A DNA stretch of 36,792 bases from a virus: positions 1 to 36,792 of IMG/VR virus record IMGVR_UViG_3300024344_000051. One strand, given 5' to 3'. Position numbers and translations under genes: made by a program. Positions 1 through 36,792 of this stretch are shown one piece after another; the first letter of the stretch is position 1, and every line of letters starts with the position of its first letter. Below the pieces are notes generated by a model that saw only the letters and a list, made by a program, of their open reading frames with translations, had not been told where the DNA came from and did not search any database.

Positions 1-19
1 GTCTAGAAGGCATAGTAGC

Positions 20-145
20 TAAACAATCATAGCCCCCCTGTCTTATCAATAATTCCATTTAAATCCCAGATGCCTTGGGATTTAATATGGGATTTAATAT
101 GGGATTTAATGGGTTTTATCGTCAGCATATAAAAAAGGAAAAATG
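20..145. repeat. 126-bp terminal direct repeat, left copy
   Basis: Bases 20-145 are identical to 36667-36792. Such a repeat at contig ends normally means a circular map or terminal redundancy. Minus-strand gene order across the junction (HNH, Lar-like, then small terminase) supports continuity. The first 19 bases of the window lie outside the repeat and do not match the bases before the right copy, so the closure is not perfectly clean. Confidence 0.95.
59..110. repeat. Inverted repeat plus three 12-bp iterons
   Basis: A 10-bp inverted repeat (TTAAATCCCA at 59-68 and TGGGATTTAA at 76-85, 7-base loop) runs into tandem units of GGGATTTAATAT at 77-88 and 89-100, with a third truncated unit at 101-110. 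Phased short iterons next to a dyad suggest a protein-binding array, such as a terminase recognition site, an operator for the plus-strand gene at 293, or a secondary origin. The block lies inside the terminal repeat and so also appears at the right end. The function is inferred only from structure. Confidence 0.7.
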
Positions 146-2607: not shown

Positions 2608-2664
2608 TTAGCCCGCTGTATCGTAATATGTAGTTTTATCTGTGTCGTCGAGAGCAATTGTCAT
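2608..2664 (-). CDS. Possible 18-aa peptide coupled to DUF1064
   Basis: A short frame starts with an ATG overlapping the stop of the DUF1064 nuclease gene (ATGA). It encodes 18 residues rich in Asp and Thr and then stops, leaving about 30 bases before the coiled-coil gene. The overlap is the only support. Confidence 0.2.
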   Translation of the reverse strand: MTIALDDTDKTTYYDTAG

Positions 2665-3068
2665 GTCTCTAAATCTCCATAACTATAACAAGTATATTTC
2701 CATCCATCCCCTTTGACTGACTCAACAAGCCAGAATTCGAACTGTGGGAACGCCTGAGCGGCGATTTTAAGCTTTGCCATACCTGTGCTTAGCCTCATGC
2801 CTTTTACCTCGTGAAAAGCCATTACATTTCGTTTAACAACAAAATAATCTGGTGTGTAGGTCGTCCTGTTGGCCAATTTGAGCCTAATCTGCTCAAAACC
2901 ATAGCTTATGATCTCACCGTTGCGCTGTAATCCCGCTAAATATCCAGCATATCTGGCCTCGGTTTTATTCATACCCATATTATCTTTAATAATTCTGGGT
3001 CTCGTCTTCTTCGAATTAACCGCTTTTATATTATTTAATAATATTGATTGATTCATTATTCGTTTCAT
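2661..3068 (-). CDS. DUF1064 family PD-(D/E)XK nuclease
   Basis: The product is 135 aa. The segment NKTEARYAGYL at about 34-44, then YTPDYFVV with Asp74 and FHEVKG with Glu87 and Lys89, gives the E...PD...ExK signature of the restriction-endonuclease fold and matches DUF1064. Relatives are thought to be resolvase-like or structure-specific nucleases in phage recombination and replication. The gene follows the O- and P-like replication genes by 2 bases, as nin-region nucleases do in lambdoid phages. The substrate is not known. A second ATG four codons in is an alternative start. Confidence 0.8.
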   Translation of the reverse strand: MKRIMNQSILLNNIKAVNSKKTRPRIIKDNMGMNKTEARYAGYLAGLQRNGEIISYGFEQIRLKLANRTTYTPDYFVVKRNVMAFHEVKGMRLSTGMAKLKIAAQAFPQFEFWLVESVKGDGWKYTCYSYGDLET

Positions 3069-3070
3069 GC

Positions 3071-3481
3071 TTAATATTTTACTAGTAACCCTTTCACCGC
3101 TTCCCTCATTTTTTTAATATTTTCAGCCGCTATTTTTGCATCAGCTATATTCCTCGCTATGCGCGGCTGAGAAAGATTCTCTTTTATTTTTCTTTCCTTT
3201 TTCGCCTCTTCAATACCGCTTAATATTTTAAATATATTCGGCATATTTTGTGGACTTAATGAGCAAGCATATTCATACCCTGCGACAATATCTGCCATAT
3301 CGCAATGTTTGATTTTCGTATATAACCTGCGCTTAAATAGCCGCACCTCCTCGTCTGTCGGATAAGCGAAATGAAATTCTTTGGGATAATCCACGCGCAA
3401 CGCTTTGACTAGCCCAGTTACTTGGATTGCAGTTGAATCATCCAGGTTTTTTGTGGGGACAGTTTTTAATTCTTCACTCAT
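3071..3481 (-). CDS. Lambda P-like helicase-loading replication protein
   Basis: The product is 136 aa and starts 3 bases after the O-like gene ends. The middle (KRRLYTKIKHCDMADIVAG, then MPNIFKILSGIEEAKKE) resembles the region of lambda P and related loaders in which R-x-W/L...F...AG...MP precedes a helical end. P proteins hand the host DnaB helicase to the phage origin bound by O. The gene pair order O then P supports this. The protein is shorter than lambda P and no ATPase motif is present, so it is not a DnaC-type loader. Confidence 0.6.
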   Translation of the reverse strand: MSEELKTVPTKNLDDSTAIQVTGLVKALRVDYPKEFHFAYPTDEEVRLFKRRLYTKIKHCDMADIVAGYEYACSLSPQNMPNIFKILSGIEEAKKERKIKENLSQPRIARNIADAKIAAENIKKMREAVKGLLVKY

Positions 3482-3484
3482 TTT

Positions 3485-4177
3485 TTAAAAATCCAGGCTA
3501 TCGATTGTTTTCAAGGTCACTCGCCCATAATCTCGCTTTTTGCTCTGCTCTCGTCTGCCCCATTGTCGACAAGCGGCTTTCCAATCCTTCATTTTTGTTT
3601 TTCCAACGTGCCAGCCGTTGGACTCGTAATGATCAAAAAACTTTCCTGGGTCAATCCCGATTCCCTGCTCGCGCAGATATATTTTTATTTCGCTGGGCGT
3701 TGGCTTTACAAAAATTTTTTCTTTTTTTTCGTCGTTTGTTTTTTTTTCTTTTTTTATATATTTTTTTCTTTTTTTTATTTTATATAAAGATTCGGGTACC
3801 CGTTTGGGTACTGGTGTCGTTTTGGGTACTGGTGTCGTTTTGGGTACTGGTGTCGTTTTGGGTACTGGTGTCGTTTTGGGTACTGGTGCCGCGTCGTTTT
3901 TGGCACTGGTTTTTGCCTGATTCTCCTCGATAATTAATCTGTATTCATTAACCTTTCCCGCTGTTTTTTTTATCTGTATTAACTCGCTTTGCTCAAGCTC
4001 AGTAAGCGATTTTATAACCGCTTTTTTGTTCATCAGGGTGATTTTTGCTATCGAATCGATTCCGGGGAAACAAACATTATTTTTATTTGCTCGGTCTGCT
4101 AGATGCAATAGCACTAACTTTGACGAGTGCTTTATCCCTATTTGCGACCACGCCCAATTAGTTAAAAAATGGCTCAT
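3485..4177 (-). CDS. Lambda O-like origin-binding replication protein
   Basis: The product is 230 aa from ATG 4177. The N-terminal 15-85 region is a winged HTH (SSKLVLLHLADRANKNNVCF, SIAKITLMNKKAVIKSLTEL). Next come four perfect VPKTTP repeats and a VPKRVP unit, then a Lys/Glu-rich low-complexity stretch. The C-terminal domain (FFDHYESNGWHVGKTKMKDW, AACRQWGRR) is common in phage replication initiators. As in lambda, the gene itself carries the probable origin: 18-bp iterons encode the VPKTTP repeats and the adjoining purine-rich strand encodes the Lys-rich part. An upstream TTG at 4195 is a weaker start. P-like protein follows directly. Confidence 0.85.
   Translation of the reverse strand: MSHFLTNWAWSQIGIKHSSKLVLLHLADRANKNNVCFPGIDSIAKITLMNKKAVIKSLTELEQSELIQIKKTAGKVNEYRLIIEENQAKTSAKNDAAPVPKTTPVPKTTPVPKTTPVPKTTPVPKRVPESLYKIKKRKKYIKKEKKTNDEKKEKIFVKPTPSEIKIYLREQGIGIDPGKFFDHYESNGWHVGKTKMKDWKAACRQWGRREQSKKRDYGRVTLKTIDSLDF
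3709..3889. other. Putative replication origin: 18-bp iterons plus AT-rich tract
   Basis: Four perfect tandem copies of GGGTACTGGTGTCGTTTT occur at 3806-3823, 3824-3841, 3842-3859 and 3860-3877. Partial units flank them at 3794-3805 (containing the palindrome CGGGTACCCG) and from 3878. Directly beside them, 3709-3787 is almost pure T with some A on the plus strand, giving marked purine/pyrimidine strand asymmetry. Lambda ori has the same parts: four 18-bp iterons and an asymmetric AT-rich melting region inside gene O. Confidence 0.85.
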
Positions 4178-4232
4178 TAATAGCCATTTATGCAATTTAA
4201 TAATATGTTTATTATTGCTTTAATATACATAG

Positions 4233-4792: not shown

Positions 4793-4801
4793 GATCGAGC
4801 A

Positions 4802-4830
4802 AATATAATTCGCGAACGTATTTTTGTCAA
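4802..4830 (-). promoter_or_regulatory. Early minus-strand promoter (pR-like)
   Basis: On the minus strand TTGACA (plus 4825-4830), a 17-bp spacer and TATATT (plus 4802-4807) form a near-consensus sigma70 promoter. The start would fall only a few bases ahead of the Cro-like ATG at 4792, so the transcript has a very short or no leader. An operator sits in the spacer. Confidence 0.88.
4807..4822. promoter_or_regulatory. Operator over minus promoter
   Basis: AATTCG-CGAA-CGTATT is an imperfect inverted repeat with 6-bp arms (5 of 6 match) and a 4-bp centre. It lies between the -10 and -35 of the minus promoter and shares its half-site core (A-T-A-C-G) with the operator at 4878-4895. The likely ligand is the Cro-like protein. 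Confidence 0.7.
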
Positions 4831-4867
4831 TGCTTTTGTTTGACATCAAAAATAATAAAAATATATA

Positions 4868-4896
4868 TTGACTCCAGATATACGTTTGCGTATATT
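4868..4896 (+). promoter_or_regulatory. Early plus-strand promoter (pL/pRM-like)
   Basis: TTGACT at 4868-4873, a 17-bp spacer and TATATT at 4891-4896 form a near-consensus promoter reading into the plus-strand early genes from 4955. The perfect inverted repeat at 4878-4895 covers the spacer and the -10, so a bound repressor would block polymerase. Confidence 0.88.
4878..4895. promoter_or_regulatory. Operator over plus promoter
   Basis: ATATACG-TTTG-CGTATAT is a perfect inverted repeat with 7-bp arms around a 4-bp centre. It overlaps the -10 box of the plus promoter. It is a better palindrome than the site on the minus promoter, so the regulator may bind here first. Confidence 0.82.
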
Positions 4897-4930
4897 GTGA
4901 GCCACTAGAGCAATAAATCAACTATAAAAA

Positions 4931-4963
4931 TCATGAAAAAATCATGAAAAAATCATGAAAAAA
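4931..4963 (+). repeat. Three tandem 11-bp repeats each holding an ATG
   Basis: TCATGAAAAAA is repeated exactly at 4931-4941, 4942-4952 and 4953-4963. Because 11 is not a multiple of 3, each ATG is in a different frame. The first two open a four-codon frame (M-K-K-S) whose TGA overlaps the next ATG. Only the third ATG (4955) opens the gene. Confidence 0.9.
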
Positions 4964-5194
4964 TCAATAAACAAAAAAGTTAAAGAGCTAAAAAATGGCT
5001 TGTATAAAATAATTTGGAAAAATCAAGGCGGAGAGTCTTTGGCAGCAATCGGCAGAACTCCGTCAGGAGACGTATGGATTGCGCCTACAAACTGGGTTTG
5101 CGGCGCTGGAACGACCGGACATTTTAAAGACATTGAAAAAGTAATACTAATCAAAGACATTGAACAAGTAATTCTGATAGAACATAAAGACTAG
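4955..5194 (+). CDS. Small early protein of unknown function
   Basis: The product is 79 aa, first in the plus-strand early operon behind the operator-controlled promoter. A basic N-terminus (KKSINKKVKELKNG) is followed by a likely beta-rich part with three Trp and a Gly-rich GAGTTG segment; the end repeats K-D-I-E-x-V-I-L-I twice. No HTH is visible, although this is where cI would lie in a lambdoid phage. The start is the last of three tandem ATGs and no clear ribosome site precedes it. Confidence 0.65.
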   Translation: MKKSINKKVKELKNGLYKIIWKNQGGESLAAIGRTPSGDVWIAPTNWVCGAGTTGHFKDIEKVILIKDIEQVILIEHKD

Positions 5195-36494: not shown

Positions 36495-36666
36495 GTTTTT
36501 TTCTCCTATTTTATTGCTTATAACTCAAATAAACGATCAATTGTCGCAACTGTCGCAACTGTCATTTGAGCGCCTGTTATTTATTGATTGCTGTTTTATT
36601 CCCTATAGCTCAAAACTCACGCCGATGAAAATATCTATAGGGGATCGTTCTATATTAAACACCGTT
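36495..36666. other. Non-coding region before terminase: repeats, candidate packaging site
   Basis: No gene is evident. TGTCGCAAC occurs twice in tandem just upstream of the small terminase start (about 36542-36560), followed by a third TGTC. CCCTATAG (36601-36608) and CTATAGGG (36635-36642) form a perfect 8-bp inverted repeat 26 bases apart. Such paired repeats next to terminase genes are found at cos/pac sites. Confidence 0.5.
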
Positions 36667-36792
36667 TAAACAATCATAGCCCCCCTGTCTTATCAATAAT
36701 TCCATTTAAATCCCAGATGCCTTGGGATTTAATATGGGATTTAATATGGGATTTAATGGGTTTTATCGTCAGCATATAAAAAAGGAAAAATG
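36667..36792. repeat. 126-bp terminal direct repeat, right copy
   Basis: Identical to 20-145, including the dyad and 12-bp iterons (here at about 36724-36757). The window stops at the ATG that in the left copy opens a 29-codon frame. If the molecule is circular, these are one and the same locus. Confidence 0.95.

Follow-up and report, generated by a model that had tools for sequence, protein, structure and literature searches.

A probable theta-type replication origin, with six iterons and an A-rich tract, embedded in the HTH_36 initiator gene of an otherwise uncharacterised phage

The replication origin of phage lambda lies in gene O (PMC7466680), and oriL of phage SPP1 lies in gene 38, where direct repeats are combined with an AT-rich unwinding element (PMC6316719). 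In the plasmid pSK41 the origin (Rep boxes) is inside rep, the linker that it encodes is dispensable and the N- and C-terminal domains of the protein are modular; in a working mini-replicon, the pfam13730 (HTH_36) N-terminal domain of pPR9 replaces the pSK41 N-terminal domain and origin (PMC5703833). Here we analysed a phage record of 36,792 nucleotides (IMG/VR record IMGVR_UViG_3300024344_000051; this whole stretch is referred to as the window), in which a tandem array and an adjoining A-rich tract lie within a gene for a replication initiator. From the sequence, and by analogy with these systems, we consider it highly probable that array and tract together are the theta-type replication origin of the phage, embedded in its own initiator gene and working like lambda ori, pSK41 ori and SPP1 oriL. 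A sequence-only reading of the same DNA had proposed a lambda-style origin inside an O-like gene, and on the sequence evidence that interpretation appears sound once it is amended to six iterons, to an initiator of the HTH_36 family and to a neighbouring P gene that is so labelled by position. The kind of origin is ordinary, being known from lambda and some plasmids, and is found here in another protein family.

The two ends of the window (1–145 and 36648–36792) share a direct repeat of ~124 bp that is identical from about position 22 and contains three TGGGATTTAATA units, and the record is thus a one-piece phage genome, circular or terminally redundant, of ~36.67 kb. A Pfam scan of 20 ORFs turned up no helicase, primase or polymerase domain, consistent with a phage that uses the host replisome; several early ORFs were without any match. 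GC skew was dropped as a marker of the origin because it follows gene direction and is therefore unusable for placing it. Two 53-bp direct repeats (79%) occupy non-coding DNA at 1094–1199, between a Q-like antiterminator gene and an HNH gene, and are possibly a regulatory or packaging element. At 4800–4970, divergent promoter-like sites lie between a leftward HTH regulator and rightward genes; this region, which includes the 11-bp repeats AAAAATCATGA at 4926–4966, is likely an early control region of lambda-like layout. The features of the initiator locus are as follows.

3485–4195, minus strand: O-like initiator gene, 236 aa, with a TTG start at 4195; homologues align from the ATG at 4177 (MSHFL...)
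3893–3910, minus strand: iteron 1, ACCAGTGCCAAAAACGAC, degenerate, codon phase 0
3870–3887, minus strand: iteron 2, ACCAGTACCCAAAACGAC, codon phase 2
3852–3869, minus strand: iteron 3, identical to iteron 2
3834–3851, minus strand: iteron 4, identical to iteron 2
3816–3833, minus strand: iteron 5, identical to iteron 2
3798–3815, minus strand: iteron 6, ACCAGTACCCAAACGGGT, a degenerate dyad copy, 14/18 identical to iteron 2
3886–3906: dyad GTGCC-N11-GGCAC across iteron 1
3796–3811: dyad GTACCC-AAAC-GGGTAC across iteron 6
3715–3781, minus strand: A-rich, strand-biased tract, the presumed unwinding element; A-rich on the coding strand, it encodes a Lys-rich disordered linker
3536–3712, minus strand: C-terminal helical module of the initiator, ~aa 162–220
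3071–3481, minus strand: 136-aa ORF, placed where lambda has P; the gene order is that of phiV10 (O, P, DUF1064)
2661–3068, minus strand: DUF1064/Holliday junction resolvase-like gene, next in the operon (phrog_190, E 3e-14; weak PF06356)

The call of a winged-HTH replication protein was borne out: residues 20–73 of the initiator match HTH_36 (PF13730; E 1.8e-12, 47.3 bits against a Pfam gathering cut-off of 25), and among the PHROG families it matches best those for replication initiation (best E 6e-23). The description O-like survives for the layout, an initiator with an embedded origin, but not for the family, since the protein had no match to the lambda O family PF04492 at E up to 1, whereas lambda O itself scored 6e-36. 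Its score for DnaD_N was under the Pfam cut-off for that family. A PDB fold search with the N-terminal domain returned generic winged helices only; 4pt7 (‘Structure of initiator’) and 4pql (‘DNA binding protein’), which we take to be RepA_N proteins, align to it with Z 9.2–9.3, tied with many unrelated winged-helix regulators. The C-terminal module is common to many phage initiators with other N-terminal domains, and relatives that carry it have several N-terminal families (DUF6291, Phage_rep_org_N, Lin1244_N and others), a pattern that suggests, at the sequence level, domain swapping among these initiators.

Along the sense of the gene the wing domain comes first, followed by iterons, A-rich tract and C-terminal module. 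In an AlphaFold prediction made with 52 sequences, pLDDT exceeds 90 in the wing domain (~aa 10–92) and in the C-terminal helical module (~aa 165–222) and is ~50 over most of aa 93–155. The iterons encode ~aa 96–133 and the tract ~aa 139–161, and in this model the whole cis-element falls in a disordered linker between two confident domains. Residues encoded by the element would thus serve as a flexible linker and the protein would tolerate the element, in keeping with the earlier suggestion that it had evolved to do so.

Tandem Repeats Finder reported an 18-bp unit in 4.8 copies with 100% match at 3803–3888. The four perfect units that had been read by eye are the identical copies at 3816–3887, and the total is six when the degenerate copies at 3893–3910 and 3798–3815 are included, with start-to-start spacings of 23, 18, 18, 18 and 18. 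The unit pattern, with up to two mismatches, has six matches in 36.8 kb, every one in the array, while dinucleotide shuffles gave a mean of 0.23 matches and never more than 2; the array itself scored 68, whereas none of 60 codon shuffles of the gene exceeded 12. Degenerate flanking units with a 10-bp palindrome had also been noted, and the palindrome, CGGGTACCCG, is indeed present at 3793–3802, beside or overlapping the longer dyad at 3796–3811, whose arm-AAAAC-arm layout is seen in relatives and in lambda. When the exact two-unit DNA of the array was sought in viral contigs, none was found.

Codon phase separates the DNA of these repeats from the peptide that they encode. Iterons 1 and 2 are separated by five bases, which changes the codon phase, so that iteron 1 reads TSAKND and iterons 2–5 read TPVPKT, yet 16 of their 18 bases are alike. 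Among viral contigs, the wing domain has its highest-scoring homologue in L225 (41% identity), where the unit ACCAGTCCCAAAAACGGT occurs six times, with one change in the last copy and 18-bp spacing of the first four. These units match iteron 2 at 14/18 bases and iteron 1 at 15/18, a level of 14/18 being reached by ~0.1% of composition shuffles (218/200,000), and they read TSPKNG where the window reads TPVPKT. Because units of similar sequence are kept in different codon phases, the comparison shows the repeats to be constrained as DNA and not as peptide, which is the behaviour of a protein-binding site.

Embedded arrays of this kind recur in related initiators. The nine-sequence alignment of the wing domain was too divergent for searching and was replaced by narrower ones. 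A significant array, defined as one that beats 40 codon shuffles, is carried by 38 of 44 diverse, non-redundant HTH_36 relatives from viral contigs, usually directly after the wing domain (39 of 44 in a rerun with new shuffles, again with 23 non-triplet). In 23 of the 38 the period is 23 or 25 bp, which is not divisible by 3, so successive copies fall in different frames and the peptides do not repeat; these 23 arrays belong largely to one subfamily and are therefore not independent events. The copies in L231, for example, read EAVSGKSPEPCPENGKSRVR from DNA that is 89% identical. Relatives that share the C-terminal module have arrays in 43 of 55 cases (15 with non-triplet periods, and some arrays of low complexity), and arrays are ~15 times rarer in control ORFs on the contigs of these same relatives (10/198). 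The annotated phages phiV10, GF-2, Vibrio H20 and Ab105-2 have arrays at this gene position, and among phiV10-like prophages the number of units varies and the unit DNA is kept. The sequence-only reading had named VPKTTP repeats that lack DNA-level conservation in related phages as the finding that would speak against it; the check gave the opposite result, in that relatives keep the repeat DNA across frames, with non-codon periods and at the same position in the gene.

Two further groups of contigs were recorded. Contigs L226–L231 and others hold an HTH_36 subfamily whose 23-bp iterons, of GCCGTGTCCGGAAAATGGC type, occur in each of the three frames. In L037–L073, many initiator genes with the C-terminal module have, at the same place, a pair of 24-bp GGGGGTATTAAAGAAAACTTAAAG repeats, so that one iteron-like unit is shared by many metagenomic phages. 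Close phage relatives of the window, sought by DNA, by the 136-aa ORF and by RecE, numbered none or one distant.

An alternative interpretation is that the array is a coding tandem repeat, produced by recent slippage or selected as a peptide linker (VPKTTP, Lys-rich), in which the DNA has no role. This reading would account for four identical copies, as a recent duplication would give, for a period that is a multiple of 3 and for a region that encodes flexible linker, but we consider it very unlikely because copies are kept in different frames, in the window itself as well as when it is compared with L225, because more than half of the arrays of HTH_36 relatives have non-triplet periods and non-repeating peptides, and because of the excess of arrays over control ORFs.

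The tract adjoining the array had been described as T-rich on one strand, and the bias is the most extreme in the window. Its span, 3715–3781, is the top A-rich, strand-biased segment on either strand, with a score of 40 against 18 for the next segment and a shuffle maximum of 14, and the most AT-rich 60-bp stretches of the window (90%) start at 3732–3735. As in lambda, the tract is on the P side of the array. In related initiators the 70 bp after the array are likewise more AT-rich than the gene, as in lambda, in both sets of relatives (p ~2e-7 and ~7e-7); when the comparison is with the 70 bp before the array, the C-module set shows a clear difference (p 4e-5) and the HTH_36 set a weak one (p 0.014, 54% of genes). 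Codon choice within the tract was rejected as proof of selection on the DNA: its Lys codons are all AAA, but AAA already makes up ~80% of early-gene Lys codons, so the bias (~0.8^12) is too weak and adds little beyond amino-acid composition.

It is even less likely that the main origin is at the repeats at 1094–1199 or 4926–4966, the present locus being a genuine but secondary or inactive origin. Both clusters exist in non-coding DNA and SPP1 has two origins, but neither cluster is combined with an initiator gene, and no tract comes close in strength to that at 3715–3781. Least probable of all is that the array is an operator through which the initiator or a phage regulator controls its own expression while replication starts elsewhere, since, although iteron-binding proteins often autoregulate and plus-strand terminator-like hairpins were scored across the array, the array lies ~300 bp into the gene and has the A-rich tract alongside in lambda order, and its unit is found nowhere else in the window.

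The gene after the initiator had been called P-like, a label whose support is positional. The 136-aa ORF had no match to lambda P (PF06992) or to anything else in Pfam, PHROG, phage or related-locus searches; a phmmer comparison with 5,276 ORFs of related loci returned nothing usable, hhalign of the single sequence gave nothing, and a single-sequence AlphaFold model had a pLDDT of 59.

If the locus is an origin as we propose, the HTH_36 wing domain would bind the six iterons and build a nucleoprotein complex, strain from which would melt the A-rich tract next to it, on the P side; the host replicative helicase would then be brought in by the C-terminal module, either by itself or together with the protein encoded by the following gene. 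Whereas the repeats, the tract, their DNA-level constraint and conserved placement, and the domain layout were computed, we infer from lambda, SPP1, pSK41 and pPR9 that the iterons are bound, the tract melted and the helicase recruited. Of these, pPR9 is by analogy the nearest experimental support for such a mechanism.

The analysis gives an otherwise uncharacterised phage a defined candidate origin, and it indicates that an iteron-like array in the linker of an initiator is common, in at least two large groups of phage initiators, and no peculiarity of lambda. We regard the family-wide frame evidence as the most useful result; repeat periods that do not fit codons inside a coding gene are a simple and transferable test that flags DNA-level elements in metagenomic sequence. 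More tentatively, and with slightly less than even confidence, we suggest that HTH_36 initiators are a broad and modular class, the DNA-binding domain moving together with its embedded origin as a single cassette and being joined to unrelated C-terminal helicase-recruiting modules, and that the gene in the window is such a chimera, its C-terminal module recruiting the helicase without a classical loader.

Set against known systems, the locus resembles lambda in its mid-gene iterons within an initiator and its A-rich, strand-biased tract on the P side. The sequence-only reading had called the iteron unlike that of lambda, which is too strong, the core CAAAACGA being shared with lambda iteron 1; this 8-mer (shuffle p ~0.016) matches one of four lambda iterons and is suggestive only. 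Lambda O, however, is a PF04492 protein, whereas the window has HTH_36, a different C-terminal module and no recognisable P, and lambda iterons are dyads with starts 20–24 bp apart, whereas the window has six units, mostly at 18-bp spacing, with half-dyads. Phage phiV10 and Edwardsiella phage GF-2 share with the window the N-terminal family, embedded arrays at the same place, CCCAAAA cores and the O-P order, and phiV10 also has DUF1064 next; both differ in their 24-bp units with full dyads and in the C-terminal part of the protein (a DnaT domain in phiV10), and phiV10 has a true lambda-P homologue beside its initiator gene. With pSK41 and pPR9 the likeness lies in Rep boxes within rep, an origin-encoded linker and modular domains, the pPR9 N-terminal domain being pfam13730 as in the window, but these are plasmids of Firmicutes (staphylococci) and the pSK41 C-terminal domain binds DnaG. 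SPP1, finally, likewise combines direct repeats with an AT-rich element inside an initiator gene, but its loader, gp39, is defined and it possesses another origin, oriR, whereas the window shows one site.
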